Shown here in pieces: positions 27,401 to 53,434 of a stretch of 53,434 nt of DNA (positions are counted from its first letter, which is position 1; each line of letters starts with the position of its first letter). This DNA is from a virus: positions 1 through 53,434 of the IMG/VR virus record IMGVR_UViG_3300006923_002342, one strand, 5' to 3'. A program made the position numbers and the translations under genes. Below the pieces are notes generated by a model, which was not told the origin of the DNA, searched no databases, and saw only the letters and a list, made by a program, of their open reading frames with translations.

Positions 27401-30400
27401 GGTCGAGCCCCGCAATAAGCCCACTATCAGCAAAAATTTGTTCTTCCCGGTTAAATGTGCCAGATCTTTTATTCGGAGATAGTGGTTCTGCGCCAGTAAT
27501 CCAACGCCATGATTCTGGATTTACGGCGGTACTAATTGAACTTTCTTTTGACCAAATTGTTTGTTTTTGGATGGGAGTTTTTCCAAAATACTCTCGAAAT
27601 AGCATTCCAATTGGAAGATTTTTCAAATAAGAAATGGACGAATCCCAATTAAACTTTCGCAAAGTTTGTTGAGATAATGCGCCATCTCCCAACAATTCTT
27701 TAACTTTTTCTGTTGGAATTGGTGTAGGTGCTTGAGTGGAGGTAAACAAACTATCATTTTTTAAAATGCGATTGGGATCATTTGGAAAAGCTGGTACATC
27801 ACATCCAGGAATCCAAGAAGGATCTTCGCTGGACTGATCTATTAACAAATAAGAATCCAACGAAGTATCTCCGATAGTTCCAATCATTTTAGTCAAGCGA
27901 TTTGATACTGCATAAACTTGATGACGAATAAAATAATCTAAAACTTTATCGAAATCATCCGTTTGGGATCGTGGTGGCCTTAATGAAGGTGCATTACGAT
28001 TATAGAGATCCAATGCTTCTTTGCGGAATTCATCAATAAATTCTTTTTGAGTTACGTCCTTTACAAGCAATTGTGAAATATAGTTAACAAGTAACCCATC
28101 CACCGTGTCGGGACTATTAAATCTAAAGTAATAAAAGATAAAAAGTGAACGTAACATCACTTCTAGCACATAAGTTCGAACAGTTAAAAGAACTGCCCCG
28201 CCGAGGTTGGCCTTTTCAAAAGGATTATCTTTGTTCGAACCCAAACCATCAATATTTGGAAAAGATGCATCTATACATTGAACAACTCCGTATTCATCTC
28301 TAATACGTTGTTTAATTACTTCAGTGTCTAGCAAGCTGGGATTAGGATCACAATTTGGATCTTGACCTGTTTTATTCATTGGCAATAAGTCCAAACCATT
28401 TAATTTTCCTAAATCTAATAAAGGAGATTTAGAAATCATTTTAGTAAAACTGCAATAAAAATCACGCCACAAACCATCATAAGTGCTATGAGGTGAAGTT
28501 GGGGAGCCATAATCTTTAGCATAAAGAAAGTTTTTTAATCCTTCTCTACCGCCTCGCGGGATTCCCACAATTCCTTGAGATAGATCAACATCAGCAACTG
28601 TTTCTCGCAGATCGTCCACAATCTTATATGAGCTTCTATATGTGGTAGCTCCGTGAGCCCAGGCTTTTTGATTCCAAGTGACAAATGCTTGCTCTTGAGG
28701 AATATGTTCAAGATTTGCATCATATGTCCAACTATTGAATTGTTGGGCGATGCAAACATAATCTTCTTGTTTTTTACTTTCCACATCCTGATAAATAATC
28801 AAAGGTGGTGTTACTACACTCCCGGCCATCGGTGCTTCAAGGGCTAACGTAATAGTCGTTGCATAACTATTAATAGGCCAGCCGCTACCACAATTTACAT
28901 CTATGCTGGCTGAATATGGAACAATGTAATCAATGTTGTAAGTGGACCCTGCCAATGCCCCAAACGCTTTAGCAATCATTTCGGTGGCATTGTCAGTTAA
29001 AGCACCTCCATGTGCGGCGGTTCCGGTGGTGGGTAATGGTGGTGTTGGTAATTGTGGAGATGGTGTAGAGTTTCCTAAAATTTTCTGGATTTCATTTCCC
29101 ACTCCTGCGGCATCGAAGACACTGTTCTTTATTTGAAAATTATATACATGATACGAGTCTCGCTGATCAGTTATGTCAAAAAGCTTTTCATCTGCACACA
29201 TAGATGCAAATGAATCTTGAAGACCAGGAGCAAATTTTGATTGGCCTTTTTCTTTTGTAGTAATGGGAATTGGAGAATAACCATATAATCGGGAATATTC
29301 AGCCATTCGCTGATCTGCTGGGGCTTGAGCATAATCTTGTGGCCGCTTTCTGCCGCCTATGGTAAGTCTATCTCCAGCGCCCGGTAAAATTTGTGCTTGT
29401 TCCCATGCAGCTTCTTGCTCTGCTGTTGGGGTCGTTTGGCCAGTTTGCATTTGGCCTGCGACCAAGCGATCTCTAACTTTAACAGGAGAACCCCAGTCCA
29501 AGCGGGCATCTCGATTATAATATTCTACATCGTCATTATCAGTTCCACCGATAGCGTTCTCTATTATCATCACTTCATCAGTTTCGCCATCTTCGCGATA
29601 AGAAACTAATGAGCGTCCTGGAACTGCGGCATCGCCAGGTAACGCTCCATAAGAATAGTTTAGTGAAGGATCTTTAACAAGCTTAGTCCATTCAGGGTTA
29701 AGTTCAAGCTTTGATGTGCCATTATCGTCAATAACAATTGTACGCGGCACTTCTCTTTCAATAAACGTATCTTTTGTCAAATTGGGTATAAACCCATCTA
29801 TATCCTGATTAAAAGTCATTGTCAAGGTATCATAAATCGTATCAAGGACTTGATTCATTAAAAAGGTCAAAGAGGGGTGATCTTTCTCAATTAAACCTTT
29901 CTTAACTTCAGGAATTAAGACTTCACCCGTTTTCCTCGAAATAATTTCTTTTGAATTAATCGGATTGGGCATTGTCATTTCTTTCGGGACAATAATACCA
30001 GCAGGATCTCGATAAATAACTGTGCAGTAGATTTCTGGTACTGCATGTTTAAGAGGGTTTCCCTGCTCCAACATGGTTGACAGTTCCTCTAGTCGCTGAT
30101 CGCGGCGGGCGTTGGATTTTAAAATTTGATCATCAATTTGAGCAGAAGACAGACCCTTGTCATTTAATAATTTTGTGCGTACAGCAATATCGTCGGTGTC
30201 TTGTAAGCATTTTGCCGATTCAGGCATCGCATCAGTAATGTTTTTTATTTGTTCTAAAACTGGTGTGGTTCCTATCAGTTTGCCCAAGTCTTCCCATAAT
30301 CTTCTAATCTGTTTTGGCAGAGATGAGGGATCACCATCACCTTGCATTAGGCGTTTTAAATTAGGATAATTATCAAGTAATGCAGTAAGTCCATACGTCG

Positions 30401-38251: not shown

Positions 38252-39232
38252 CTATACACCACACTCTTTATTTAATTTTTGCATATCATATTCTACCATA
38301 GTTCTCACCATTTGTTCAAAACTAATTTTAGGATGCCAATTAAATTTATTAAAAGCCTTAGAAGAATCACCTTGAATTATATCCACTTCAGTTGGTCGTA
38401 TAAATTTAGAATCTTGCTTAACATACGGTTCCCAATTTTCAATCCCAATATACTCAAAAGCAATCTTTAAAAAATCCCTTATAGAATGTAATTGATTTGT
38501 GGCTATTACATAATCATCAGGAGTATCTTGCTGCGTCATCAACCACATCGCTCTAACATAGTCAGGAGCGTATCCCCAATCTCTTTTTGAATCCAAATTT
38601 CCAAGAACAATGTGTTTTTTTACTCCACATTTTATTTGAGCAACCCCTTGTGAAATTTTACGTGTTACAAATTTTGGACTACGACGGGGTGAATTATGAT
38701 TAAATAAAATAGCATTACAGACAAATAAATTGTATGCTTCACGATAATTTCTAGTAATCCAATAAGAATAGAGTTTTGCCACCCCGTATGGACTCTGTGG
38801 CATACACGGGCTTAATTCATTGGAAGGAACATCCACAGCGCGGCCAAACATCTCAGAAGACCCAGCCTGACAAAATTTTATATTCTTGTTACAGTGACGA
38901 ATTGCTTCTAAAATCCTTAACACACCAATTCCATTTACTTCACTTGCATCTTCTGGCGTATTCCAGCTTTCGCCTACCGCACCACGATTAGAAGCTAAAT
39001 TATAAATCTCATCGGGCTTGATATTTTCCACACATTTAATAATAGATTTCTGATCTTTTAAATCACTTTTTATAAAGTGCAATTTGTCTTTGCTACTCTC
39101 TAAATTTCTATGATTTAAAGAACTTTCATCTCTTATTGTTCCCCATACTTCATAATTCTTGGATAATAGAAAATCAGCTAAATGACTTCCGTCCATACCA
39201 GTAACACCAGTTATTAAAGCTGTTTTTTTCAC
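38252..39232 (-). CDS. SDR dehydratase, GDP-mannose 4,6-dehydratase paralogue 1, 326 aa
   Basis: An extended SDR of the GMD type. The Rossmann motif is GVTGMDG (residues 9-15), the catalytic set is S125, E127 (GSSEMFG), Y149 and K153 (SPYGVAK), and [13 protein letters not shown] marks the GDP-sugar site. The 4,6-dehydratase converts GDP-D-mannose to GDP-4-keto-6-deoxymannose. It is the most divergent of three copies: where GMD usually has an AMSHV-type loop it has [17 protein letters not shown] changed specificity or a reductase/epimerase step is possible. Start GTG at 39232 overlaps the stop of the next SDR gene (GTGA), with AAGGA eight bases upstream. All GMD-type catalytic residues are present. 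Confidence 0.8.
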
Positions 39233-40224
39233 TGTAGAAGTCCTTGACTCTCACCTCTTTTTAAATATTCATAATCAGCTCGATACATCATTTCATATAA
39301 TTGTTGAAAACTTATACGTGGTTCCCACTTTAATATTTTTTTAGCCTTCGAAGCATCTCCCAAAAGATATGGAACTTCTTGTGGCCTAAAGAGTCTTTCG
39401 TCTATTTCAACGTATTTATCAGGATTCAAACCAGCATACGAAAATACACATTCTAAAAACTCTTTAATCGTATGAAAATCTCCCGTCGCAATTACATAAT
39501 CATCAGGAGTATCTTGTTGTAACATCTTCCACATGGCTTCAACATAATCCCCAGCATAACCCCAATCTCTCTTGGCGTCAAGATTGCCAAGAAATAATTT
39601 ATCCTGAAGTCCCAATTTAATTTTTGCCGCTGCTAAAGTTATTTTGCGAGTGACAAAATTCTCTCCACGCATAGGTGATTCATGATTAAAAAGAATACCG
39701 CTTGATACATGAAGATTATAACTTTCTCTATAATTTCTTACCAAATTATGAGCAAATACTTTTGCACATGCATAAGGAGAAGCAGGCATCAATCGCGAAT
39801 CCTCATTAAAAGGATAATTTAAATTATCTCCAAACATCTCAGATGAAGACGCTTGATAAAATCTAGCATTTGGACAAACAGTTTTTATTGCATTTAATAT
39901 TCTTAAAGTTCCCATAGCTATCCCATCAACTGTGTGTTCGGGAATATCAAAGGAAACACGAACATGTGATTGGGCCGCAAGATTATAAATTTCGTCGGGG
40001 TTTATATCAATCAATAATTTCCAAATTGCCCCAGCGTCATTTAAATCAAAATATATTAATTGAAAATTCTTATGTTGAAAAATCTCATCCACTCTCTGGG
40101 TGTTTTCAACTGATGTTCTTCTTTTGAGGCCGTAAACTTTATAATTTTTTTTTAACAACAAACGGGCCAAAAAAGCGCCGTCTTGCCCCGTAATGCCAGT
40201 TATTATTGCTTTCATTTGTTTCAT
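39229..40224 (-). CDS. SDR dehydratase, GDP-mannose 4,6-dehydratase paralogue 2, 331 aa
   Basis: A GMD-type SDR. It has GITGQDG (residues 10-16) for NADP, SSSEMFG with S127 and E129, SPYACAK with Y151 and K155, and [13 protein letters not shown] near the GDP-mannose site. The loop [14 protein letters not shown] is close to the usual GMD loop. The start is the ATG at 40224, which forms a TAATG overlap with the preceding ColD-like gene and has GGAG ten bases upstream. An ATG nine bases further upstream is too close to this site. It lies directly behind the 3-dehydratase gene, so it may act in the same pathway. Paralogues 1 and 3 flank the sub-cluster. Confidence 0.85.
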
Positions 40225-41399
40225 TATAAGCATTCTCCATCTTTTATCCCCGTGTTTACAATTGTACTAATAAATTCTATTTCTTCCTCGGTCAAAAGTG
40301 GATGATTCGGCAAATAAAAACCATATTCATCAACCGCCGAAACATTAGATAAATCATCTTCTCCATATTTTTTGACATAAAAGGGTTGTTTCCCCAGAGA
40401 ACCACAAATAAGAGGACGAGTTTCTATATTTTTTTCTTGAAGCATTTTAACAATTATACTTTTATTGGGATGTATCACTGGAAATGCAAAATTCGATATA
40501 AATTTATCCTTATCTTCTTTCGCGCTCCAAAACGGATTATCAATGAGTTTATTATACAAAATAAAATTTTTATTTCGTTGCTTGCAAATATCATCTAATT
40601 TGTCTAACTGACCCAACCCAATAAATGCTTGCAAATCTGTAGAGCGTAAATTAAAGCCAGCATGATAAAAAGTATAAAGAGAATTAAACCCATTAATTTT
40701 CCACTCATTCCTCAACTTCGTTTGTTGATCCGAATCCATGTCCCGATCCCAACCGTGACTTCGAATACTTTTAAGGATGTTTATTAAATCTTTGTCATCA
40801 GTAGAAACAACACCACCTTCAATGGTTGAAATATGATGACCAAAGTAAGTAGAAAAAGTTGACATTAGTCCAAAAGTTCCAAGCTTTTGACCCTTATATT
40901 CACTACCAATAGATTCACATACATCCTCTAACAGAATAACATTATATTTTTCACACAACCTTACTATTTCATCCATATGAGGGACTAAACCCAGAACTGA
41001 AACCAAAATTAAAGCTGATGGGGATTCATCTTTAAAAATATTTTCTAAAAACTCTAAATCCACAGAAAGATCTGTCATGTTAATGTCACATAGAACTGGT
41101 TTTAATCCCAATTGCATTACGGGAGATAGATCTGTTGCCCAAGACAACGCAGGAACTACAATTTTAGAACCAGGGGAAATATAATCTCCCTCTAACAAAG
41201 CCGCCAACATTAAAAGATTTGCAGAAGAACCCGAATTACAAAAAAGAGAATATTCCCTTTCTAGCCAACTACTCCACTTCTTTTCAAATTGGGTTGTTAG
41301 TTGCCCTTTTGTAAGACGAGGATAAGTTTTTAACCATTCAATTAAAGAATCTATATCCCCTTTATTTATAGTTTCTTTGGCCAAAGTAATTTGTTTCAT
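40224..41399 (-). CDS. ColD/RfbH-like PLP-dependent sugar 3-dehydratase, 391 aa
   Basis: A DegT/DnrJ-fold enzyme in which the PLP-binding lysine is replaced by histidine. The motif is [14 protein letters not shown], with H188 and H189 where aminotransferases have K-N. ColD (GDP-4-keto-6-deoxymannose 3-dehydratase) uses histidine at this position, and RfbH/DdhC enzymes do likewise. Such enzymes remove the 3-OH of a 4-keto sugar, using glutamate-derived PMP in ColD. Other features fit: [14 protein letters not shown] (residues 157-170) with the Asp that contacts the PLP ring, NSGSSAN (55-61) for phosphate binding, and a C-terminal domain of normal length. The start ATG at 41399 overlaps the TGA of the GMD gene upstream (ATGA), so the enzymes are co-translated. 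The likely product is GDP-4-keto-3,6-dideoxymannose. Confidence 0.85.
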
Positions 41400-42367
41400 A
41401 TTTCTTTTTCCCACCTTTCAATCATTTCTTCCAGCATTGTTTCAAAAGTATATTCCGGCACCCAACCCAATACTTCACGCGATTTCGATGCATCTCCCTT
41501 TAAATATTTTAATTCTTCCGGTCGCATGTATTTAGAGTTCTGAACCACATGGTCTAAATAATTTAAGCCCAATTTTTGAAACACAGTGCGACACAAGTCT
41601 CTTACCGAGTGAGTGTTGCCTGTAGCTACAATAAATTCATCGGGGATATTATGATTTAAGATCAGGTGCATCGCACGTACATAATCTTTTGAATGTCCCC
41701 AATCTCTATAAGAATCCATGTTTCCAAGTTCTAGCTTTTCCTGTAATCCTTTTTTAATAGAAACTGCACCGTGAACAACCTTGTTTGTTACAAAATTCAA
41801 GCCTCGGCGTGGAGACTCGTGATTGAATAAGATTCCATTACAAGCATGTAGTTTATAAGCATGTCTATAGTGGCGCACAAGATTGTATCCCATAACTTTA
41901 GCACAACCATAAGGACTAACCGGGTTCATGGGAGTTGTAAGCCTCTGTATACCATCATCGTCTACTGAATTACCGAACATTTCAGATGAACTGGCCTGAT
42001 AAAACTTAGCGTGAGGCGATAATGTCCTGTAAACCTCTAACATATTAAGTACCCCCAATGCATTCGTTTGAATAGTGAACGAAGGAATATCATAGCTAAT
42101 ACGCACATGGCTCATGGCTCCAAGATTATAAATCTCATCCGGCTGTACTTCTTGAAAAATACGCACCAATGAAGGGTAATCAAGGAGATCGCCATAATAA
42201 GTTTTGATTTTTCCACCCAACTCTGTTAAACGAATATCTTGATTTTGTGCCACTGAATGGCGGCGTATTATACCATAAACTTCATAATCTTTGCCATATA
42301 GATACTCGGCCAAATAACTACCGTCCTGGCCGCTGATGCCTGTAATGAGTGCTTTCTTTTTTATCAT
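41396..42367 (-). CDS. gmd: GDP-mannose 4,6-dehydratase, 323 aa
   Basis: The most canonical of the three GMD copies. It has GISGQDG (10-16), GAMSHVRISYDIPS (83-96), SSSEMFG with S127 and E129, SPYGCAK with Y153 and K157, and SPRRGLNFVTNKVV. It would convert GDP-D-mannose to GDP-4-keto-6-deoxy-D-mannose in the cytoplasm with NADP. This is the substrate of the ColD-like enzyme encoded by the next gene, whose start overlaps its stop (ATGA). GGAG is eight bases before the ATG. Length and domain order are normal. The pair provides the first two steps toward a 3,6-dideoxyhexose. Confidence 0.9.
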   Translation of the reverse strand: MIKKKALITGISGQDGSYLAEYLYGKDYEVYGIIRRHSVAQNQDIRLTELGGKIKTYYGDLLDYPSLVRIFQEVQPDEIYNLGAMSHVRISYDIPSFTIQTNALGVLNMLEVYRTLSPHAKFYQASSSEMFGNSVDDDGIQRLTTPMNPVSPYGCAKVMGYNLVRHYRHAYKLHACNGILFNHESPRRGLNFVTNKVVHGAVSIKKGLQEKLELGNMDSYRDWGHSKDYVRAMHLILNHNIPDEFIVATGNTHSVRDLCRTVFQKLGLNYLDHVVQNSKYMRPEELKYLKGDASKSREVLGWVPEYTFETMLEEMIERWEKEI

Positions 42368-43044: not shown

Positions 43045-43635
43045 TCACCTAAAAACCTTCATTTTTGTTAAATCTGGCCAATCCATAACAGTCCACCGAG
43101 TTGGTTTTGTTTTAATCGCATCTGGTAATTTTTTCAAGCCAAGTTGTGCAGTTTCTGGCGTCATGTAGTAGTGATATCCCATCATATCAATATTTTGTTC
43201 TCGCCACGGAATATTTGGATGCCTACCGTCATAAGACATTCGTTTAAGCACATCTGCTGCTTTAGCATTATCTGTTAAAATAATCCCACCACGACCGAGA
43301 CTCAAATGTTTGCGAAATTGAAAACTTACACACATAAAAGTACCGGGCAGATAAGAATCTTTCTTCCACAATACGGCTGCATCTATAATATTTGTATTAC
43401 CTAAATAATAAAAATCAGTCCATTCCTCATCCCTAAACTCAAAATCAATAGCTAGTTTGCGGGCCAAGAACGGTACTGAAATATAAGTGTTCTTCGGTAT
43501 TGTATAATATTGCACGTTTTGATAACGTAGGCACAACTCAAGAGCATGAGTGCAGCAATCAACAGCTACTGCATGTGGAGCGCCAAAGAAAGCAGCAATT
43601 TTATTTTCAAATTTTGTAATATCCTCAAAACTCAT
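43045..43635 (-). CDS. Half-length DegT/DnrJ-fold aminotransferase-like protein, 196 aa
   Basis: It looks like the PLP domain of a DegT/DnrJ/EryC1 sugar aminotransferase without the C-terminal half. FENKIAAFFGAPHAVAVDCC aligns with the N-terminal region, IIDAAVLWKK with the Asp strand, and SFQFRKHLSLGRGGI with the lysine loop, so the PLP lysine (FRKH) appears present. Full-length members are about 370-400 residues. The protein ends naturally at DLTKMKVFR, and no downstream frame carries the missing part; the next gene is FkbM. It could be a stable short phage form, a partner of another DegT protein, or a remnant. The start ATG at 43635 overlaps the upstream stop (ATGA), with GGAG eight bases before it. 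Confidence 0.65.
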   Translation of the reverse strand: MSFEDITKFENKIAAFFGAPHAVAVDCCTHALELCLRYQNVQYYTIPKNTYISVPFLARKLAIDFEFRDEEWTDFYYLGNTNIIDAAVLWKKDSYLPGTFMCVSFQFRKHLSLGRGGIILTDNAKAADVLKRMSYDGRHPNIPWREQNIDMMGYHYYMTPETAQLGLKKLPDAIKTKPTRWTVMDWPDLTKMKVFR

Positions 43636-44171
43636 TTTACACACTCCACATTCAAACTCACCAGCGTTCCATTTTTTTTATCCATATGAGGAATATATGC
43701 CTGAGAATGATCATCAAACATTGCATGTTCAGTTTCGCGCCAATCATATTTTCTAACATTAGAATATCCACAATTCTCCAAAACTTTTCTCAAACTTGCA
43801 AAATCATAAATTGTTTTGTGATAAATTGCTAAATCTCCCATCGGCATTCTTCCATAAAGAGGACCAAGCAATTGATCGAGAGAAACCGTTCCACTTGTAT
43901 AAAGCGAACTTAAAACTGTAAAGTTTGGCACGGCTATCCGCAAGATAGCGGCGGGCTTTAGAACTCGATACCATTCTCGTAATAATTTTTCAACCCCATA
44001 ACGATCAAAATACTCGACCACATGAGATGCATAAATAAGATCGACTGTGTTATCTTGGAATTCTAGCGCCTCTATAGATCTATAATCCAAATGAGGATAA
44101 TCTCCCCCATCAATGTGTGTCCAGTCAGCACCAAAATTGCGCACGCCACAGCCCATATTGATCTTAATCAT
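43632..44171 (-). CDS. Class I SAM-dependent methyltransferase, 179 aa
   Basis: The protein begins MIKINMGCGVRNFGADW, with the GCG turn of the SAM-binding motif I in the first strand. DLIYASHVVEYF and LLREWYRVLKPAAILRIAVP give the Methyltransf_11-type core. The ATG at 44171 is preferred over one 30 bases upstream because AAGGAG lies seven bases before it. The start overlaps the end of the cupin gene by eight bases. The short C-terminal part (YIPHMDKKNGTLVSLNV) does not suggest a specific acceptor. Probably modifies a sugar of the cluster, as inferred from neighbours. Confidence 0.75.
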   Translation of the reverse strand: MIKINMGCGVRNFGADWTHIDGGDYPHLDYRSIEALEFQDNTVDLIYASHVVEYFDRYGVEKLLREWYRVLKPAAILRIAVPNFTVLSSLYTSGTVSLDQLLGPLYGRMPMGDLAIYHKTIYDFASLRKVLENCGYSNVRKYDWRETEHAMFDDHSQAYIPHMDKKNGTLVSLNVECVK

Positions 44172-45414: not shown

Positions 45415-45774
45415 CTAATTTTTATTGTTAAAGCCCTTATACTGCTTTACATTTCCGTCGTCAAATTTTTTGGTAAATTCTTTATTTATATGTGCGTCTA
45501 AATACTGATTTATTGCTTTTGTTAATTTAGGACGGCGATCTTTAAAACAAAAATCTAATTTTCTTTTTAAATCAAAGACTTCTTGAGGATCATTGGATTC
45601 TGCACAAGCGTCTTCAATTTTCCACATACGAATATGAAGGATGATATACTTTTCAAGCATTTCTGCAAAATTATCAGACCACTCGACACCTTTAAAATGG
45701 GGTGGCTCTTTGTCAAATCTAGACTCAATTTCTTCTAGTACCAACTTACTTATTTTTTCTAATCTTTCGCTCAT
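45415..45774 (-). CDS. Helical hypothetical protein, weakly DUF4254-like, 119 aa
   Basis: All-helical and highly charged, with many Glu, Lys and Asp. The segment IILHIRMWKIEDACAESNDP resembles the WxxED helix of DUF4254 proteins, which occur in LPS clusters, but the length is short for that family. The C-terminus is lysine and asparagine-rich (KQYKGFNNKN). Its ATG overlaps the stop of the GT9-like gene (four bases, ATGA). The role is unknown. Confidence 0.5.
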   Translation of the reverse strand: MSERLEKISKLVLEEIESRFDKEPPHFKGVEWSDNFAEMLEKYIILHIRMWKIEDACAESNDPQEVFDLKRKLDFCFKDRRPKLTKAINQYLDAHINKEFTKKFDDGNVKQYKGFNNKN

Positions 45775-46670
45775 AACGGCACTCTCTCTAAAATATTTTT
45801 TAAAACCCTTCCAACGTGTATGTTATCGCAACCTCCGGTTTCCAAAAAGGTAACACCATTATCATTAACAGGTTCTAACGCTAATAAATTTTGAGTATGA
45901 TTCGGAAGCCAGTTTGTCATTAAATTTATAGCAGGATGAGAATAAGCACCCATAACCCATTGAGCACCACTATCAGTTCCAATAACTAATTGTGAGGCTA
46001 ACGCGGCCTTTACTTGGTCAAAATATGATAATTCTGGAAATGTTCTATAACCCTTTAATTCGCTTAATGTGGGATCGGATGGCAACCCATAGTGATGAAC
46101 CGTATATCCTCTTTTTATTAAGTTATCAATCAACAAGTTCCACCAATGAGGACTTGGGGACCGCCCAGGAGATCCAGCAAAGGGCCATATAGCAATATTA
46201 TTATGATATTTAACAGTGCCCAAATTTGCTTGTTTAGCATAAGTAGAAGTCACTATCGGCAAGCCCACATCAAACCATTTATATAATTTGGGTTTCATCT
46301 CGCCCTCTGTTAATACATCTGTAATATCCATTATACCATTCATACGAGCAGTTTCTTCGACTTTAGACCTATAATTATAATAATCGGGTATATCATGTTG
46401 GGCTCCTTTAGGAATTATAATATCACACGTATTCATTAAATCTTGATCTTGGGGGCCGAAGCTGGTCCATTCGTCTGTTATTTTAATTCTATCAATCAAA
46501 GGGTGATTAAAATAGATGGGCGCAGTTTGCGCACATTTCTTATCAATTACCCAATATTTATAGCTATTAGGATATTTTTTTTCAAAATATGTTAACATAG
46601 GTAAAGCCATTATAAGATCACCTATTATCCCATAGCTCATCCCCCATATACTAAAATTTTTATTCACCAC
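45771..46670 (-). CDS. GT9-like glycosyltransferase, about 300 aa
   Basis: A heptosyltransferase-type GT-B protein. NIAIWPFAGSPGRSPSPHWW matches the usual PGxS/A-x-x-K/R-x-W-P donor-side motif. AALASQLVIGTDSGAQWVMG is the D-S/T-G nucleotide-sugar loop of GT9. The C-terminal part (ETGGCDNIHVGRVLKNI) completes the domain. The N-terminal half has WGMSYGIIGDLIMALPML, the glycine-rich acceptor-domain turn. I place the start at a GTG at 46670 just after the upstream cupin stop. A TTG 33 bases upstream would overlap that gene. ADP-heptose is a plausible donor by family, though not proven. It is the second GT9-like protein of the cluster. Confidence 0.7.
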   Translation of the reverse strand: MVNKNFSIWGMSYGIIGDLIMALPMLTYFEKKYPNSYKYWVIDKKCAQTAPIYFNHPLIDRIKITDEWTSFGPQDQDLMNTCDIIIPKGAQHDIPDYYNYRSKVEETARMNGIMDITDVLTEGEMKPKLYKWFDVGLPIVTSTYAKQANLGTVKYHNNIAIWPFAGSPGRSPSPHWWNLLIDNLIKRGYTVHHYGLPSDPTLSELKGYRTFPELSYFDQVKAALASQLVIGTDSGAQWVMGAYSHPAINLMTNWLPNHTQNLLALEPVNDNGVTFLETGGCDNIHVGRVLKNILERVPL

Positions 46671-46678
46671 CGTTGACC

Positions 46679-47038
46679 CTAATCCCCCTTTATAACTCGA
46701 CAACTATCTTCATCAAAATGTTGGGTAGAAAATTCAAAAAGCTCTGTATCTTCTAAAGCAATCATTTGGTGTCTCAATCCTGTATAAACATGAAAATTAT
46801 CGCCCGCACCTAAAACCATTTCTTCAGCTTCTAGTATATCATCATTGTCTGAAAATTTTAAAAGAATCTTGCCAGACTGGATATAGAAGACTTCATCCTT
46901 GATCTTATGATAATGCCACGAGCACCGCTTATCCTTCACGAAATATAAAAGCTTCCCACAATATTGTTCACAGTTAACAATCCACTTTTCAAATCCCCAG
47001 CCTTTGGGAACAAACTTAATCGGTATAGAAGTCTGCAT
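46679..47038 (-). CDS. Cupin, type II phosphomannose isomerase-like, 119 aa
   Basis: A compact cupin close to the C-terminal domain of mannose-6-phosphate isomerase/mannose-1-P guanylyltransferase proteins. PKGWGFEKWIVN is the typical entry. RCSWHYHKIKDEVFYIQSG carries the metal-binding H-x-H and E. The second motif is GAGDNFHVYTGLRHQMIAL. The ATG has AAGGA seven bases upstream and overlaps the HAD phosphatase gene by 23 bases. Members of this group isomerise sugar phosphates or act as binding proteins. It could feed mannose-6-P toward GDP-mannose for the three GMD proteins, but no guanylyltransferase is visible. Confidence 0.65.
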   Translation of the reverse strand: MQTSIPIKFVPKGWGFEKWIVNCEQYCGKLLYFVKDKRCSWHYHKIKDEVFYIQSGKILLKFSDNDDILEAEEMVLGAGDNFHVYTGLRHQMIALEDTELFEFSTQHFDEDSCRVIKGD

Positions 47039-47336
47039 CTTTTATTCCTTTGTCGTCCACATACATATCTCCATTGGGTTTTCCCATAAATAAATCGTGA
47101 TATTTAACTCCCCAATTATCTAATTGCTGCGCGGTATAAGCATAAAATATTTGATAAGCCTTAATCACATTATTATTAGTTCTACCCATTCCTCGCGCTG
47201 TTTGATAGATGATAGTGTGTCCCTCATCATATAATTGATTATTTTTTTCTATCCTATTCCGTTTCGGCTCTGCATTGTCATAGTCACCATAACTGTTGGT
47301 GCAAATAGTTCCATCGATATCAAAAATATAAACCAT
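47016..47336 (-). CDS. HAD-superfamily phosphatase, small C0 type, 106 aa
   Basis: A short cap-less HAD hydrolase. Motif I is FDIDGT with D6 and D8 (nucleophile and general acid). TARGM carries motif II. GKPNGDMYVDDKG carries K86 of motif III and D94/D95 of motif IV. All four HAD motifs are present in 106 residues, typical of small phosphatases in capsule and LPS clusters. It probably removes a phosphate from a sugar bisphosphate, and could therefore take the role of GmhB in the heptose pathway, although GmhB itself is longer. The start overlaps the transaldolase stop by one base (TAATG). Confidence 0.8.
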   Translation of the reverse strand: MVYIFDIDGTICTNSYGDYDNAEPKRNRIEKNNQLYDEGHTIIYQTARGMGRTNNNVIKAYQIFYAYTAQQLDNWGVKYHDLFMGKPNGDMYVDDKGIKDADFYTD

Positions 47337-48001
47337 TAGGAAATCCAGCTCTCAAAGTCTTTTAAAAACCCGTTTACCGACTCATCTGTCTTGGAGTGTT
47401 TCATAGATTTTTTAATCACCGAATAACCGGCAGTAACAATGTGGCAGCCAGCTTCCCAGGCATTCACAATATCGTAAGGGTTTCGGATGCTTCCAGCTAT
47501 AATTTCAGTATTCGTGCCCTTTTCGTCAATAAATTTACTTACAGTCGCAGCTACTTGAAGGGGATCGCCGCCGACATCAATTAATCGATTATAAAAGAGT
47601 GACACATACTTAGAACCTGCTAAAGTTGCCATCTCCATTTGTGCTGCTGTGAAACAACAAGTGCAATTCACATCAACACCTTCCGAACTTAATTTATTAA
47701 TTACCTCTAATTCTTCAAAACCAACAGGAATTTTAATATTTAGATTCTCATAACCCACATCGTTTATAATTTCCATCGCCTGACCAAACATAGAATTAGC
47801 ATCTTTAGCGAACACTTCAACACTCAAAGGGAGGTTTCCTGCCTCTCCACACAGAGAAGCAATTTTTTTAATATGTCCCAGAAAATCTGTTTTGGGTTCT
47901 TTTGCCAAGATAGAAGGGTTGGTGGTAACTCCTTCAACTATGCCTTTATTAATGGCGTCAGAGATTTCATCTAAGTTTGCTGTGTCTAAAAATAATTTCA
48001 T
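47336..48001 (-). CDS. talC: Transaldolase, TalC/FSA family, 221 aa
   Basis: A Class I aldolase of the short transaldolase family. MKLFLDTANLDEI has D6; GVTTNPS carries N28; NLNIKIPV has K90, the Schiff-base lysine; and SLFYNRLIDVGG follows. LPLSVEVFAKD has Glu at residue 62, where fructose-6-phosphate aldolase has Gln. In this family Glu favours transaldolase activity, which makes sedoheptulose 7-phosphate from fructose-6-P and erythrose-4-P. Phages, notably cyanophages, carry talC as a metabolic gene. Here it lies within a sugar-activation module instead of with photosynthesis genes. The ATG follows GAGGAAT and is three bases after the cupin gene stop. Confidence 0.9.
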   Translation of the reverse strand: MKLFLDTANLDEISDAINKGIVEGVTTNPSILAKEPKTDFLGHIKKIASLCGEAGNLPLSVEVFAKDANSMFGQAMEIINDVGYENLNIKIPVGFEELEVINKLSSEGVDVNCTCCFTAAQMEMATLAGSKYVSLFYNRLIDVGGDPLQVAATVSKFIDEKGTNTEIIAGSIRNPYDIVNAWEAGCHIVTAGYSVIKKSMKHSKTDESVNGFLKDFESWIS

Positions 48002-48003
48002 CT

Positions 48004-48414
48004 TTATTCCTCTTTGAAAGTATATTGTTTGCCATCATGGACAATGTGTGAATCTGATTCTTGATCATGAGTGGCAACTTCAATGATCGTTGTATCTTCT
48101 AAGGCAATCCTCATGTGCATTAAACCAGGCTTGATTTCAAAAACATCTCCCTTTTCTAATGTTAAAGACTTATTTTCCCCTCTGCCGATCTTCATACCTA
48201 CTTTTAATTTACCTTCTTGAATGTAGTATAATTCTTTTTTGGTACAATGAAACTCCATGCTGCTTTGTGTACCCTTTCTCATGAATATTTCTTTTAAACA
48301 AAACATTTCGTTTTGAAATAAAGTTGCCATATGACCCCAATATTTTTCTACTACTTTTGATTTAAGGTGTTTTGAAGGGATTTCCAAAATCCCATAAATA
48401 TTATCTTTGTCCAT
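48004..48414 (-). CDS. Cupin-fold protein, about 136 aa
   Basis: A single cupin domain. MEFHCTKKELYYIQEGKLKV is the first motif, with H and E ligands. KGDVFEIKPGLMHMRIALED is the second. It resembles the other cupin at 46679-47038 and is similar to mannose-6-P isomerase-type or sugar-binding cupins. Three in-frame ATGs exist (48444, 48432, 48414). I prefer 48414 because a GGAG lies upstream and the overlap with the AraD gene is shortest (14 bases). It is between the AraD-type epimerase and the transaldolase, so a sugar-phosphate isomerase role is plausible. The substrate is unknown. Confidence 0.65.
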   Translation of the reverse strand: MDKDNIYGILEIPSKHLKSKVVEKYWGHMATLFQNEMFCLKEIFMRKGTQSSMEFHCTKKELYYIQEGKLKVGMKIGRGENKSLTLEKGDVFEIKPGLMHMRIALEDTTIIEVATHDQESDSHIVHDGKQYTFKEE

Positions 48415-49084
48415 AGTAGGCTTTGTCTCCATGTTTTCGTTCATAGTGCTTGTTTAAAATATAGGAGGGCAATGGCTCAACAGGATTGGATAGTGTATTG
48501 GAATAAAAAGACATTTCGGCGACTTGTTCCATAATATAAGCATGGTTGAATGCATCCTCATAATTTTTTCCCCATGAAAAGACGCCATGGCCGCGCACCA
48601 ACACGCCGGGAGTGGCTTGGGGGGAAATACACTTCTCTCGGAATAAGTCAGTTATTTGAAGCCCTGTATTTCCTTCATAGTCATTCTCAATTTGCTCTGG
48701 TGATAATTGTGAGGTGAGAGGAATTTTTCCATTAAAATAATCAGCATGGGTCGTTCCGATACACTCAATCGGTATTCCCGCTTGGGCAAAGCTAGTACAA
48801 AACTTGGAATGTGTGTGTGCCACACTCTTTATGTGCGGAAAGTGGTGGTATAAATGCAAGTGGGTTTTCAAATCCACAGAGGGCTTCTTTCCTTCGATCA
48901 ATTCGCCAGTTGTGAGAGATACAAGGGATATGTCACTTTCATGCATTTCGCTATATTTTATACCCGAAGGTTTAATGTAGATTGTGTCGTCTTGACGAAT
49001 CGAGATATTCCCCCACGTTAATACAACCAAGCCACTAGAAGATAGTCTTTTGTTTTCCTCTAGGCACTTACTCCTTAAATTCAC
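48401..49084 (-). CDS. araD: AraD-type L-ribulose-5-phosphate 4-epimerase / class II aldolase, 227 aa
   Basis: The sequence is close to enterobacterial AraD/UlaF. LTWGNISIR (22-30), D71 in SVDLKTH, the metal ligands H90 and H92 (VAHTHS), D115 in THADYF, H166 in RGHGVFSWG, and Y224 in KAYYGQ all match, with a constant offset of five from E. coli AraD (D76, H95, H97, D120, H171, Y229). It would interconvert L-ribulose-5-P and D-xylulose-5-P, or act on a related sugar phosphate by aldol cleavage. The start is GTG at 49084, as the next ATG would remove part of the fold. It appears GC-richer by eye than its neighbour PfkB. Its placement with kinase, isomerase and transaldolase suggests an activated-sugar pathway. 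Confidence 0.88.
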   Translation of the reverse strand: MNLRSKCLEENKRLSSSGLVVLTWGNISIRQDDTIYIKPSGIKYSEMHESDISLVSLTTGELIEGKKPSVDLKTHLHLYHHFPHIKSVAHTHSKFCTSFAQAGIPIECIGTTHADYFNGKIPLTSQLSPEQIENDYEGNTGLQITDLFREKCISPQATPGVLVRGHGVFSWGKNYEDAFNHAYIMEQVAEMSFYSNTLSNPVEPLPSYILNKHYERKHGDKAYYGQR

Positions 49085-49090
49085 ACCAAT

Positions 49091-49120
49091 ATTATATCAC
49101 ACATTAAATTTCTTTTTTAA
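49091..49120 (-). promoter_or_regulatory. Candidate extended -10 box before the AraD gene
   Basis: On the minus strand TGATATAAT lies at 49099-49091: the stop codon TGA of the kinase gene runs into TATAAT. A weak -35 (TTAAAA, 49120-49115, 18-base spacer) precedes it. The start would fall near the GTG of the AraD gene at 49084, so a transcript would be almost leaderless. This is uncertain: the box may be chance. It repeats the string after the 384-residue gene stop at 103. Confidence 0.25.
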
Positions 49121-50053
49121 ATCAAATAAGTTTGGTAAATGATTTTTAGGAGTGGAAACATATAGGGCCGCCCAATTGTTGGAAATATTTAAACTCTCTT
49201 GAGGGCTATTTTCATAATCACAGAGAGCGAGCGAGGCCAAGAAGCTATCCCCAGCACCACAGGAATCCACTACATTAGTTGAGACGCCTGGGGAGTTAAA
49301 TTCTTCGCCATCTACACAAAGAAGGCTTCCCTTTGAACCCAGTGTAACACATATATCACAATTCAAACTCTTGCTTACCTCTTTTATGTTACTACAATTT
49401 AAATATTTTTTTAAAACATTGCACTCACTCTCATTCACCACCAACAAACTACAGTCTTTAAAGTTTTGAAAGTGTTCGATATCATTAGATGAAAGTTGAG
49501 AATTGATTAAAACATTTGTACCGTTCAAATTGCAGGCCGAAATTATATGTTTAATGATTTTGGGGGTCAAAAAACCATTTCTATAATCTGATATAATTAC
49601 GCAATCAAATCCAACTAGCATATCCGGGATCTCAGCCAGGATCATACCCTCCACTTCTTCAGAAATAGGTTTTTTACAATCGGTATTTAGTTGAAAATAT
49701 TTATATTCTTGTTCTCCGCGAGTGACCCAATACCTTCTTTTTACATTGTTTATCTTAGAGGCATCATAAAAAGCTTTTATTTGCACATTTTTACTACAAC
49801 TCTTAAACATGTCCATATACTCGCCCGGAGCTTTTAGGGTTAAAAAAGTAATACTTTTACATAACTTTTGAAGGTTGGAAACCACCCCAAGGGCACCACC
49901 GGGAATAGTTCTATAATTCTTTAATCGAGCCTTGAGAGTTGGTGTTTCCAACGCCAAACCGAGTGATTCGCATCTATAAGAAACATCAATGATGGTATCC
50001 CCCACAACGCAAATTTTCTTATCTTTAAAAAAATTTAGGAGTTCTTTTTCCAT
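49097..50053 (-). CDS. PfkB-family sugar kinase, HldE kinase-domain-like, 318 aa
   Basis: A ribokinase-fold enzyme. ICVVGDTIIDVSYRC (14-28) and PGGALGVVSNLQKL (51-64) are close to the N-terminal kinase domain of HldE/RfaE, which phosphorylates D-glycero-D-manno-heptose 7-phosphate at C1. The PfkB C-terminal signature VVDSCGAGDSFLA (261-273) supplies the ATP-binding anion hole and catalytic D269. The length matches the HldE kinase domain. It follows the RpiB-nucleotidyltransferase gene with 19 bases of overlap, so kinase and adenylyltransferase activities are separate proteins here, encoded side by side. The substrate could be another sugar phosphate. Confidence 0.85.
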   Translation of the reverse strand: MEKELLNFFKDKKICVVGDTIIDVSYRCESLGLALETPTLKARLKNYRTIPGGALGVVSNLQKLCKSITFLTLKAPGEYMDMFKSCSKNVQIKAFYDASKINNVKRRYWVTRGEQEYKYFQLNTDCKKPISEEVEGMILAEIPDMLVGFDCVIISDYRNGFLTPKIIKHIISACNLNGTNVLINSQLSSNDIEHFQNFKDCSLLVVNESECNVLKKYLNCSNIKEVSKSLNCDICVTLGSKGSLLCVDGEEFNSPGVSTNVVDSCGAGDSFLASLALCDYENSPQESLNISNNWAALYVSTPKNHLPNLFDLKKKFNV

Positions 50054-50904
50054 GTTTTGAGAGACTTTGCTTTCTTAATGATACTAGTTGTAGAATAATT
50101 TTCTACAAAAGGGCAAATGCGAATTTCAGTATCGGTGGGGATATTATCTCTTTTCCTAACTTCTGAGCTTGACCATTCTCCACCTTTTACAACAATATGA
50201 GGGTTGACTTGTTCTCTAATGGAGTCTAATTCTCCATTAAATATAATAACTTCATCTATTTCCCTTATAGAATCAAGAACCTTCTTGCGATCAATCTGGG
50301 AGTTAACTGGTCTTGATGGACCTTTAAGTTTTCTAACCGAAATATCGTCATTTATAGCCACAATCAATCTATCTCCCAATTTTTTAGAAAATTTAAAGAG
50401 TTCAATGTGACCTTTGTGAAGGATATCAAAAACACCATTCGTAAACACCACTTTATCAACGGGTTTGGAATTCAATTTTACTATTCTTTTTTCATGGCGG
50501 CCCTCTCCATAGGGTTCGCCGAGCCATGAATCTAAAATCTGTAAAGAAGTTTCTGCATTATTAATCCATGCTCCCATGCAAATTACATTAGAGTCATTGT
50601 GTTCACGGCACTTGGGGGCAGTTTCTATATTGTGAACGAGGGCAGCTCTTATGTTCGGAAAGCGATTTGCCGCGATGCTCATGCCAACGCCAGTTCCACA
50701 TATTAAAACGCCACGATAAGATTCATCAGATGAAACAATAGAAGAAATTTGTTTAGCGTAATCCACATAATCCACACTCACGTCTGCATTGTATGGACCT
50801 ATATCAATTACTGTATATCCCCTCTCCTTAAGAAGTTGTGTAAAATAACTTTTTAACTCGACACCGTTATGATCGGCACCTAAGATGATAACTTTTTTTT
50901 CCAT
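50035..50904 (-). CDS. RpiB isomerase fused to HldE2-type nucleotidyltransferase, 289 aa
   Basis: Two domains in one frame. Residues 1-145 are RpiB/LacAB: GADHNG with D11 and H12, CGTGVGMSIAANRF with C69 (the enediol base of RpiB), EHNDSNV and RHEKR, all as in E. coli RpiB. Residues 150-289 are the adenylyltransferase part of HldE: TNGVFDILHKGH with the HxGH nucleotide motif (163-166), KLGDRLIVAINDD, KGPSRPVN, KGGEW and STTSII. No linker of note separates them. RpiB interconverts ribose- and ribulose-5-P; HldE2 transfers AMP to heptose-1-P. A natural fusion of the two would join sugar isomerisation to nucleotide activation. The next gene is the matching kinase. I know of no described enzyme with this architecture. 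Confidence 0.88.
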   Translation of the reverse strand: MEKKVIILGADHNGVELKSYFTQLLKERGYTVIDIGPYNADVSVDYVDYAKQISSIVSSDESYRGVLICGTGVGMSIAANRFPNIRAALVHNIETAPKCREHNDSNVICMGAWINNAETSLQILDSWLGEPYGEGRHEKRIVKLNSKPVDKVVFTNGVFDILHKGHIELFKFSKKLGDRLIVAINDDISVRKLKGPSRPVNSQIDRKKVLDSIREIDEVIIFNGELDSIREQVNPHIVVKGGEWSSSEVRKRDNIPTDTEIRICPFVENYSTTSIIKKAKSLKTWKKNS

Positions 50905-50910
50905 TTTTAC

Positions 50911-51786
50911 CTACAAGTGTTTTAAAAAAATTCCAAAGGCTTCGTTTTGTTGCACTCTGATAGCGCTTATCAAAGCTTCACCATTAAGTCCCCACCAATC
51001 TTGGGATGCGGCACCTAATAACTGCGTCTTTGTTATAACTCCACAGTTTAACATCTTAGCTTCTACTACGAGCCGACAAAGAGATTCTAGAACTGTGGGG
51101 ATGTAAACAAGAGTGCGATAAGAAGATAACGTTTTTAAAAATTCTTCCTCATCAGAGGAGTGAATTAGGTCGAAATCATACTTGCTTCGTTGACAAAAGG
51201 CTGATGCTTGTTGAGTTCCTTTGACCACGTTGTGAGAATTAACTACACAATAATCTTTATCTTTAGGGGTTTGAGCTATTGATTCAATAAAATTGAGCTT
51301 GCTTTCAGACCACAAACTACACCCAATACTCTCTACATTGGAAATGTCCAAATTTTTTCTCACACTATCAGCTTGAGAATTACTAAGACAAACCACACAT
51401 TTAGAGTTTTTATAAAAATCCCTATTGATTACCTGATCTGGGGGAGCAAGGAAGTTCGGAAATCTTGAAGGATCTCTTGTTTTAAGATATTTGTGGTCAT
51501 GTTCATAAATAACATAATGTGTATCTTTTAAAGCTCTTTTTGATTCTTCGGTAAGTTGTACGAAGTTTCCAACAATAAATTTTTTATTCTTATTAGACTC
51601 TATGAAAGAAGGGGATATATCGCGGCAATATTTTTTTTCAACATTGAAGCCATATTCCTCTAAGAGAGAGATAAGAACTGAGTCGTTGTTTTCTGCGCCA
51701 CCTTTATTGTTTAAATCTACTTTATAAAAGTCGCCTATAAAAATACACTCTAGATCATTTGAACTTCGTTCAATAGAGAATTCCAC
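50911..51786 (-). CDS. Putative GT4-type glycosyltransferase, 291 aa
   Basis: Probably a GT-B transferase. The N-terminal half has ECIFIGDFYKVDLNNKGGAE, which gives the GG-x-E turn typical of GT4 acceptor domains. VVCLSNSQADSVRKNL is the end of that domain. The donor-side half has VNSHNVVKGTQQASAF and YIPTVLESLCRLVVEAKM, where two Glu (LESLCRLVVEA) form the family's E-x7-E-like pair. The start is GTG at 51786, supported by AGGA six bases upstream. It overlaps the preceding glycosyltransferase gene by 37 bases. The donor and acceptor are unknown. Confidence 0.65.
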   Translation of the reverse strand: MEFSIERSSNDLECIFIGDFYKVDLNNKGGAENNDSVLISLLEEYGFNVEKKYCRDISPSFIESNKNKKFIVGNFVQLTEESKRALKDTHYVIYEHDHKYLKTRDPSRFPNFLAPPDQVINRDFYKNSKCVVCLSNSQADSVRKNLDISNVESIGCSLWSESKLNFIESIAQTPKDKDYCVVNSHNVVKGTQQASAFCQRSKYDFDLIHSSDEEEFLKTLSSYRTLVYIPTVLESLCRLVVEAKMLNCGVITKTQLLGAASQDWWGLNGEALISAIRVQQNEAFGIFLKHL

Positions 51787-53006
51787 TCTTCTTCCTCTTT
51801 GCTGGGTTTATAGACAGAGTTGCATAATTTCTGATATTGGACTGATTCTTCAAATGTTTCTTGAACCCATTTTTGCAACTTCTTAGCATCGGATTTTGCA
51901 GCTCCAATATTCTTATGAACTTGCCTTAAAGTCTTTTTATAGTTCCACTCTTTTGGGAAACACCACATGGAATCCTTTTGAATTACACCTTCCCAATGTG
52001 CCTCTGGTTGGATTGGTTTAATATCAAATGCAATCTCGCTAAACATTGCTTTATTCTTTACTTTACCCTTTTTGTCTTTAACGGGCATATGAAGGAAATC
52101 CACTTGGCCACTCCAATTTGGAGCAATTACTGGAAGTCCATTATACGCAGCTTCAAAAAGTGGAAGACCGAAACCTTCTCCGTGTGACAAATTAATCATC
52201 GCCTTTACTTGTGGATGTTGATATAGCCCTGTCATCTCTGATTCACTCATATCACCATGTAAAAGATAAACTTCACACTTGCGACCGGCGTGTTCTTTTA
52301 AAAGTTCTTGTAGGCGTTGGTGGGCGAACGTTCTATCGCGCAAGCAATTTTTAGCCAAAGAGGTTTTTACTATAAGTCCTACCTCTTGATCATAAAATTC
52401 CTCTACAAACCATGTAATCGTTCTCTCCAGGTTTTTTCTCGCAATCCATGTGCCGACAGTGAGAAAATTAAAGTCGTGCTTTAAATCTAAATCTAGATTA
52501 ACAGGTTCTATATTTTTTACAGGATATCCCACGACTTCAATTGGGCAAGTCGATTTGGCCATGAATTGCTCACCTGTCGCATTGTTGGTGGCGGGATATT
52601 CCGTGTTGTCAAAACCGAATTTGGCATGTTCGGACACCACAATAATCTTATCCATTTGAAGGGATTTTTCTACCCATCCTGGTGCGATTTTTGTGGTTTC
52701 AATACCGGCTGTTACACCAATGTTTATCGGTGCTAGCTTCTCCCATTCATTAGGGATGGTAACTTGCAAGGATATATCAAATTGTCCGCCTTGTTGAGTA
52801 TGTTGGATTGTTTTTCCTAAAATAAGATCAATCCATTGTCGCTCTTCGGTGTCTTCATGGAGCCAACCGGTTTGGCCCCAATTAAGATTAATAAGATATA
52901 CGTCAAACACATCAGGATGTGATCGCAAAGATCTTAACACAAACCTGGTATGTTCACCATAACCACTCTGACTTAAGGCTGGACCCCTAACTAATACTTT
53001 TTTCAT
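51750..53006 (-). CDS. GT4 glycosyltransferase, 418 aa
   Basis: A full-length retaining GT-B enzyme. KKVLVRGPALSQSGYGEHTR (2-21) is the glycine-rich N-terminal loop. The hinge has DFNFLTVGTWIARKNLERTI with the R/K of the donor-phosphate site (ARKN). GEGFGLPLFEAAYNGLPVIA is the E-x7-E motif with its usual G-F-G-L-P context. The C-terminal helix (LQKWVQETFEESVQYQKLC) closes the fold. The start ATG at 53006 overlaps the stop of the previous glycosyltransferase gene (ATGA). It probably adds one residue to a surface or virion glycan. Confidence 0.85.
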   Translation of the reverse strand: MKKVLVRGPALSQSGYGEHTRFVLRSLRSHPDVFDVYLINLNWGQTGWLHEDTEERQWIDLILGKTIQHTQQGGQFDISLQVTIPNEWEKLAPINIGVTAGIETTKIAPGWVEKSLQMDKIIVVSEHAKFGFDNTEYPATNNATGEQFMAKSTCPIEVVGYPVKNIEPVNLDLDLKHDFNFLTVGTWIARKNLERTITWFVEEFYDQEVGLIVKTSLAKNCLRDRTFAHQRLQELLKEHAGRKCEVYLLHGDMSESEMTGLYQHPQVKAMINLSHGEGFGLPLFEAAYNGLPVIAPNWSGQVDFLHMPVKDKKGKVKNKAMFSEIAFDIKPIQPEAHWEGVIQKDSMWCFPKEWNYKKTLRQVHKNIGAAKSDAKKLQKWVQETFEESVQYQKLCNSVYKPSKEEEEWNSLLNEVQMI

Positions 53007-53434
53007 ACTGCCATTAACTCCCAAGATTTATAATTTTTACGATTTTCCCATGAACCATGTTCTTCGTGTGTTTTTAATAAGATTTCTTCCCATTTTTGGG
53101 CAAAATTTTCAAAATTATAATTATCTAAAACATGTTGGCGACCTGCTTTGCCGAGTTCAGCTCTTTTGTCGGACCCATATTCATACATTTTAACCAAAGC
53201 ATTCGTCACGTCTTTACCGGACAGGCGATCTTCATAAATGAATGGCACCTCTTGGGAACCAATAATTGCTTTTGAAGCTGGTTCAATACCTATTCCGTGC
53301 TCGCACTCTACTACTTTCTTTGCCTTATTGTTTCTTTTTAACATAATAGATTCGCTAACTTTATCTATCTTAGTCACTTGTTCTTGCAACCCACCTGTCA
53401 TAGTAGCAATAATGGGCGTTTCACATGCCAAAGA
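53003..53434 (-). CDS. C-terminal part of a GT4 glycosyltransferase, cut by the right edge
   Basis: The frame is open at the window edge and ends at 53003 with TGA. The visible protein begins SLACETPIIATMTGGLQEQV, equivalent to the end of the E-x7-E donor motif of GT4 (usually EAMACGTPV). It continues with a C-terminal helical region (GKAGRQHVLDNYNFENFAQK). About 143 residues are visible, perhaps a third of the protein. The gene is transcribed first in the visible cluster, which therefore extends beyond the window. Confidence 0.8.
   Translation of the reverse strand, partial: SLACETPIIATMTGGLQEQVTKIDKVSESIMLKRNNKAKKVVECEHGIGIEPASKAIIGSQEVPFIYEDRLSGKDVTNALVKMYEYGSDKRAELGKAGRQHVLDNYNFENFAQKWEEILLKTHEEHGSWENRKNYKSWELMAV

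Follow-up and report, generated by a model that had tools for sequence, protein, structure and literature searches.

An RpiB-HldE2 fusion shared by phages and distant cellular genomes lies in a conserved cassette that may make an unusual activated sugar

INTRODUCTION

In the ADP-heptose pathway (GmhA, HldE and GmhB, or the split enzymes HldA and HldC), a sugar phosphate is isomerised, phosphorylated at C1, dephosphorylated at its terminus and joined to a nucleotide. A gene on a viral contig, in which an RpiB-type isomerase and an HldE2-type nucleotidyltransferase share one frame, raises the question of what sugar such a protein might help to activate. The contig was analysed at its full length of 53,434 nucleotides (IMG/VR record IMGVR_UViG_3300006923_002342, positions 1 to 53,434) and is referred to below as the window.

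RESULTS

The fusion is a single, intact gene

The gene and the domains of its product are as follows:

50035..50904, minus strand: RpiB-HldE2 fusion, 289 aa (ORF, Pfam, NCBIfam, AlphaFold2, and 47 distinct full-length versions including that of the window)
Residues 6-144 of the fusion: RpiB domain
Residues about 145-151: linker
Residues about 150-280: nucleotidyltransferase domain

The frame starts with ATG and runs without a stop; the initial annotation, which gave no strand, had described it correctly, and it lies on the minus strand, the plus strand of the same interval being rich in stops. That both domains are complete, as had been claimed, was borne out by Pfam, in which LacAB_rpiB aligned to residues 6-144 (160 bits, profile positions 1-138 of 138) and CTP_transf_like to residues 154-276 (55 bits, positions 1-131 of 133), and by NCBIfam, in which rpiB (TIGR01120) scored 140.3 bits (cut-off 138.65) and rfaE_dom_II (TIGR02199) 133.7 bits, below its cut-off of 181.5. 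The motifs listed at the outset are all in place: CGTG with C69, RHEKR at 136-140, HKGH at 163-166 and KGGEW at 240-244. Structure prediction, which the initial annotation had proposed as a check, returned two compact, well-formed domains (AlphaFold2, 33 sequences, mean pLDDT 89.2). In Foldseek searches the first domain matched RpiB crystal structures, with 42-44% identity to the E. coli and C. thermocellum RpiBs in the alignments, and the second matched HldC (5xf2) and glycerol-3-phosphate cytidylyltransferase (1coz). A stop or frameshift at residues 140-155, named beforehand as what could split the protein, is ruled out: 47 distinct fusions were found at full length and in frame, and those other than that of the window are 49-61% identical to it; it is thus extremely improbable that two genes were joined by a sequencing or assembly error.

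Baseplate-wedge matches place this IMG/VR virus contig, which is that of a marine phage, among contractile-tailed phages, and the phage is probably T4-like. Two virion-type ORFs of the window are very large, at 3153 and 2582 residues (11252-20713 and 24495-32243).

Distribution and relationships of the fusion

The fusion is rare in cells but not among viruses. Full-length copies were found on 52 other viral contigs, 44 of them detected by a scan and confirmed by tblastn and eight more reached by a scan from the neighbouring cupin, and in seven cellular genomes. The latter, from a scan of GTDB genomes, comprised three Patescibacteria-type carriers (Parcubacteria, Doudnabacteria and Taylorbacteria), a Prochlorococcus single cell, a member of the Longimicrobiales, an Acidobacteria MAG and an archaeal MAG. 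Only one of 200 Prochlorococcus genomes had the fusion, this being the copy already found, and full-length matches among 379 sampled genomes of the Patescibacteria-type phylum were confined to two of the known carriers. The best 80 RpiB-family genes on IMG/VR contigs (L238-L317) were divided equally, 40 being fused and 40 plain.

Several candidate carriers were rejected. None of 128 matching named phage records covered 80% of the fusion query, and the named cyanophages have single-domain nucleotidyltransferases without a fusion match. Two plasmid matches extended over both domains: that on a Sagittula plasmid, annotated rfaE2 and adjoining a separate sedoheptulose-7-phosphate isomerase gene, had its RpiB part aligned spuriously at 28% identity, while that on a Proteus plasmid fell in a stretch without listed genes and was set aside.

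The fused RpiB domains formed one clade with respect to the plain ones (SH-aLRT 98.9); in the tree of nucleotidyltransferase domains the fused forms were not one clade (two changes). The tree of full-length sequences nested the Prochlorococcus copy, whose contig also has chain-length determinant and glycosyltransferase genes, among viral copies, and grouped the other cellular copies apart together with one viral row. Because of these placements, exchange of the fusion between phages and cells, in either direction, appears likely.

The fusion belongs to a conserved cassette

The genes around the fusion in the window are the following, all on the minus strand:

45771..46703, minus strand: possible GT9-like (heptosyltransferase I-like) glycosyltransferase, a weak match (TIGR02193, 23.2 bits, cut-off 185)
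46679..47038, minus strand: CUP1, second cupin, 60-64% identical to cupins of isolated cyanophages
47016..47336, minus strand: small HAD phosphatase of the EcbF/BcbF type, candidate sugar-bisphosphate phosphatase (TIGR01689, 50.7 bits, below cut-off; 9iqw, E 1e-12)
47336..48001, minus strand: TalC/FSA-family protein with a transaldolase-type active site, K90, E62 and F136 (NCBIfam, residues)
48004..48444, minus strand: CUP2, small single-domain cupin like the C-terminal domains of mannose-6-phosphate isomerases (Cupin_1, 28.9 bits; MannoseP_isomer weak)
48401..49084, minus strand: AraD-like ketose-phosphate 4-epimerase, class II aldolase fold (PRK08193, 276.7 bits, cut-off 257)
49097..50053, minus strand: HldE1-like PfkB-family sugar-phosphate kinase, a separate protein, overlapping the fusion gene by 19 bases
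50911..51786, minus strand: putative glycosyltransferase directly upstream of the fusion, without a Pfam match, kept in 13 of 51 loci
51750..53024, minus strand: GT4-like glycosyltransferase further upstream (PF20706, 29.9 bits), kept in 14 of 51 loci

The initial annotation was right that the kinase is a separate protein with its own ORF. The AraD-like epimerase, the cupin, the transaldolase and the HAD phosphatase, which it did not mention, form one conserved unit and are central to the locus. Across 51 fusion loci the kinase was present in 50, CUP2 in 49, the transaldolase in 47, AraD in 46 and the HAD in 44, the absences falling mostly at contig ends, as did the single absence of the kinase. 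Wherever the contig continues, the kinase, the CUP2-type cupin and the transaldolase stand beside the fusion, and the HAD and AraD-like genes nearly always do; kinase, phosphatase and nucleotidyltransferase are thus encoded together. This co-location supports the original proposal that isomerase and nucleotidyltransferase serve one pathway, to which the separate kinase would also belong. In the reverse search from the cupin, all eight additional contigs with room had the fusion, and among viral contigs CUP2 occurred only beside it, except on one truncated contig. Gene order differs in L044, L083, L084 and L085; the genes thus stay together irrespective of any single inherited arrangement. With the start codons used in this analysis, the kinase gene overlaps the fusion gene by 4-35 bases in 47 of 50 loci. 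CUP1 was left outside the core cassette because its close copies (77-82%) are found in few fusion loci only. In two Patescibacteria loci, cupin and HAD apparently make up one ORF, judging from ORF and tblastn positions (L083:10100-11341 and L084:6451-7551).

The kinase matched PfkB (Pfam, 63 bits) and rfaE_dom_I (TIGR02198, 112.5 bits, below the 345-bit NCBIfam cut-off); its nearest solved structure was HldA (4e84, E 4e-5), and it has a GAGD motif with a nearly invariant D269. The AraD-like protein matched E. coli AraD (1jdi, E 4e-62), and its Zn ligands H90/H92/H166 and catalytic D115/Y224 are nearly invariant, aligning to the E. coli Zn ligands H95/H97/H171 and catalytic residues D120/Y229. 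At the positions that tell transaldolase (TalC) from FSA, the TalC-type protein has Glu and Phe in place of the Gln and Tyr of FSA; E62 was found in 46 of 48 rows and F136 in 47 of 48, with one gap. In CUP2, residues E64/H66/E71/H110 are invariant, and the Foldseek neighbours of its model, which include phosphomannose isomerase (7zvy) and KdgF, point to no single function; a role as an anomerase or second isomerase is possible.

Four phage contigs, which represent two lineages, lack AraD: L031/L032, one of them 197 kb long and both searched as whole records, and L219/L220, searched over their stretches. Their fusions nevertheless have the signature residues of the others; the C4 step would therefore be either not universal or supplied by the host. 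In the archaeal MAG, AraD lies on a different contig.

TIGR00441, the model for the usual heptose isomerase GmhA, had no match in 14 of 14 phage records, in the Patescibacteria-type MAGs or in the archaeal MAG, and matches below the family cut-off were found elsewhere in the Longimicrobiales, Acidobacteria and Prochlorococcus genomes. In the Patescibacteria-type MAGs G015 and G016, which have no other HldE2-like match at E <= 1e-25, genes of the GT9 heptosyltransferase family adjoin the fusion, and a GT9 gene probably does so in G018. Such genes are near the fusion in several phages, and are weak or absent at many phage loci and in the window, where no match to PF01075 was found.

Further away in the window lie three GDP-mannose 4,6-dehydratase-like paralogues (38252-39232, 39229-40233 and 41396-42367). 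Near them are a DegT aminotransferase of full length (40224-41414) and a short DegT-like ORF of 199 residues (43045-43644); the dehydratase and DegT genes at 38252-42367 are possibly an aminodeoxy sugar branch.

Catalytic residues are kept and pocket residues are changed

The catalytic residues C69, H102, R136 and R140 are present in all 47 distinct fusions, as is H166 of the HxGH motif, H163 being present in 46. Like E. coli RpiB/AlsI and LacAB, the RpiB half has the complete LacAB_rpiB fold with the catalytic Cys/Thr/His/Asn (Cys69, Thr71, His102, Asn103) and two phosphate-binding Arg residues (Arg136, Arg140). It lacks the phosphate-binding Arg113 (MtRpiB numbering; the aligned E. coli RpiB residue is Arg), a position occupied by Trp in 47 of 47 fusions and by Arg in 67 of the 73 plain RpiBs gathered here, Arg also being found in 40 of 40 plain viral RpiBs. 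Besides W113, residues N13, P37, Q52, N92, K98 and G133 are specific to the fusions. The HldE2 half has HxGH, K194, R198, D217 and the STT region, and departs from the KGG-Asp and (F/L)xxGxSTT motifs. Position 243 is Glu in all fusions versus Asp in 41 of the 41 plain HldE2s compared, and most fusions have D/N/K/E in place of the STT-motif Gly; together with R252 (in all fusions) and R250 (in 46 of 47), these are the fusion-specific features of this half.

In MtRpiB, Arg113 binds the phosphate of R5P and narrows, or partly covers, the pocket, while hexose-phosphate LacAB uses another Arg instead and has a longer, open pocket (PMC3755991). The presence of Trp in every fusion would therefore disfavour plain R5P isomerisation and favour a longer substrate; judged by its residues, the RpiB half is unlikely to carry out plain ribose-5-phosphate isomerisation. 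In some HENases one Arg broadens nucleotide choice (PMC11461863). The fusions do not have it at that position, and the nucleotide transferred would most simply be AMP from ATP, giving an ADP-sugar.

DISCUSSION

A possible route to an activated heptose

We lean somewhat towards the fusion being an enzyme with two activities in a dedicated route to a nucleotide sugar; this route would run alongside ADP-heptose synthesis, with an RpiB/LacAB-type isomerase replacing GmhA. The substrates of AraD are 3L,4R ketose phosphates, on which it acts at C4, and RpiB/LacAB enzymes give C2-R aldoses. The transaldolase products S7P and F6P have C3 to the left and C4 to the right, like xylulose-5-phosphate, an AraD substrate; inversion at C4 leads to a tagatose-type ketose, which LacAB turns into a galacto aldose. 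In the proposed pathway the cassette transaldolase would form a ketose phosphate of D-threo configuration at C3/C4, most simply sedoheptulose-7-phosphate; the AraD-like enzyme would invert C4; the RpiB half would isomerise the ketose phosphate to an aldose phosphate; the HldE1-like kinase would add a 1-phosphate; the small HAD would remove the terminal phosphate; and the HldE2 half would transfer the nucleotide, probably AMP from ATP, yielding an NDP-sugar for the nearby glycosyltransferases. The fusion would thus couple the aldose-forming isomerase with the final activation step. From S7P, the AraD and RpiB steps would give D-glycero-D-galacto-heptose-7-phosphate, and omission of the AraD step the D-glycero-D-gluco form. 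The reaction order, the seven-carbon substrate, the nucleotide and the product configuration are all extrapolated from the parent families; D-glycero-D-galacto, in particular, is a guess from their stereochemistry and is doubtful as the actual configuration.

Seven carbons are preferred because the kinase and nucleotidyltransferase most resemble heptose enzymes, because the cassette has a dedicated transaldolase, and because GT9 genes adjoin the fusion in GmhA-less genomes without another HldE2-like match. Kinase, HAD and nucleotidyltransferase all score below NCBIfam cut-offs, so a non-heptose substrate is possible. The weakness or absence of GT9 at many phage loci, the lack of AraD in two phage lineages and a scheme that gives CUP2 no step also count against this reading. 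Of the 'ribose- or heptose-based' product first suggested, the heptose half is favoured on these grounds, whereas ribose is disfavoured by the replacement of Arg113 by Trp (PMC3755991). Similarly, the idea that the RpiB product or a relative is what becomes activated holds insofar as both belong to the same pathway, but the HldE2 half is unlikely to act on that product directly, since the HldE logic needs gain of a 1-phosphate and loss of the terminal phosphate first. With the kinase and HAD steps intervening, the fused activities would be an early step and the last one.

A usual ADP-heptose-type route to a manno-heptose is unlikely, although the absence of GmhA from fusion-bearing phage records and several MAGs, the HldE1- and HldE2-type partners, the adjacent GT9 genes in Patescibacteria and the dispensability of AraD in two phage lineages would all fit it. 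Most loci have AraD, for which that route has no use; E243, R252 and, nearly always, R250 set the HldE2 half apart from every plain HldE2, and it has lost the usual STT Gly; and the known RpiB/LacAB products are of C2-R and not manno configuration. We regard as quite unlikely a route through pentoses (xylulose-5-phosphate to L-ribulose-5-phosphate by AraD, and on to an L-pentose-5-phosphate) or hexoses (F6P to tagatose-6-phosphate to galactose-6-phosphate), followed by 1-phosphate activation to an NDP-pentose or NDP-hexose. It would leave the dedicated transaldolase unexplained, sits poorly with a kinase and nucleotidyltransferase closest to heptose enzymes and with the loss of the Arg113 of pentose-phosphate RpiBs, and would be a roundabout way to NDP-galactose, for which simpler routes exist. 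In its favour, AraD proper acts on L-ribulose-5-phosphate and the cassette member passes the AraD subfamily cut-off, and LacAB converts tagatose-6-phosphate to galactose-6-phosphate (PMC3755991).

The RpiB half might also be an ordinary pentose-phosphate-pathway enzyme that raises nucleotide supply during infection, its fusion to HldE2 being accidental; all the RpiB catalytic residues are kept, and viral rpiB appears among the listed auxiliary genes of the pentose phosphate pathway (PMC3877843). This is very improbable given that phages and distant cellular genomes alike retain the fusion beside the same partners, that every fusion has Trp113, and that the Doudnabacteria genome has a separate RpiB besides the fusion. 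The preferred reading can be extended, tentatively and at less than even confidence, to a self-contained route from central sugar phosphates to a non-manno (galacto or gluco) NDP-heptose, made up of a transaldolase, a heptulose-phosphate 4-epimerase of the AraD type and an RpiB-type heptose isomerase fused to a nucleotidyltransferase. T4-like phages and distant cellular lineages would have exchanged this route.

Relation to known systems

The cassette follows the chemical sequence of the ADP-heptose pathway, and its kinase and nucleotidyltransferase are homologues of HldE1 and HldE2. It differs in that its isomerase is of another family and fused to the nucleotidyltransferase, with GmhA missing, in its EcbF/BcbF-type HAD, in the addition of AraD, cupin and transaldolase, and in its changed HldE2 pocket. 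The fusion shares its HldE2-type catalytic domain with the HENases, which the classification of Tang et al. (2024; summary in PMC11461863) divides into enzymes that are alone, fused to a kinase or fused to an isomerase/kinase; viral enzymes of the HENase type have been reported. Multi-domain forms thus exist, but an isomerase fusion without a kinase is outside the three classes summarised, and the fusion motif does not have the usual Gly.

The isolated T4-like cyanophages P-TIM68, S-SSM7 and S-CAM3 have a homologous small HAD and cupin, with a kinase and single-domain nucleotidyltransferase close by in the first two. In contrast to the fusion loci, no RpiB fusion or SIS-type isomerase was found there and no AraD or transaldolase is annotated, and the nucleotidyltransferase keeps Asp at 243. 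In P-TIM68 a transketolase-like gene (L232:3335-4480) directly precedes the kinase of the related core cassette, which suggests that the activation steps are the same and are supplied by a different front end. The genes annotated 'phosphoheptose isomerase' in P-TIM68, S-SSM7, S-CAM3 and Sf-CH5 (L232:6760-7098, L234:8082-8417, L237:7086-7406 and L233:8964-9311) are 49-53% identical to the small HAD of the window, and no SIS_2 domain was matched in the four records; this annotation is probably wrong. The adjoining cupins in three of these phages are annotated 'cysteine dioxygenase'. The septacidin and hygromycin B pathways also provide S7P-derived non-manno heptoses in bacteria (PMC9654166), but for actinobacterial natural products, the likeness here being one of the described products.

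No match in Pfam, NCBIfam, PHROGs or the PDB covers both domains of the fusion, and our literature search found no paper describing an RpiB-HldE2 fusion or the six-gene set; in the titles and abstracts searched, no biosynthetic route to mannoheptulose-7-phosphate or D-glycero-D-galacto-heptose was found. Pathways to activated heptoses are known, and a six-gene route with such a fusion was not found described among them.

These results point to a GmhA-independent way of making and activating an unusual surface sugar, with its steps in one transferable set of genes; the product is probably an unusual activated seven-carbon sugar for surface decoration. Because 40 of the best 80 RpiB-family genes on IMG/VR contigs are fusions, counts of viral 'rpiB' probably mix two functions, and some of the auxiliary genes counted under the pentose phosphate pathway would instead serve surface-sugar synthesis. 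The fused halves, with their family-specific pocket changes, offer a handle on substrate choice in the RpiB and HldE2 families.
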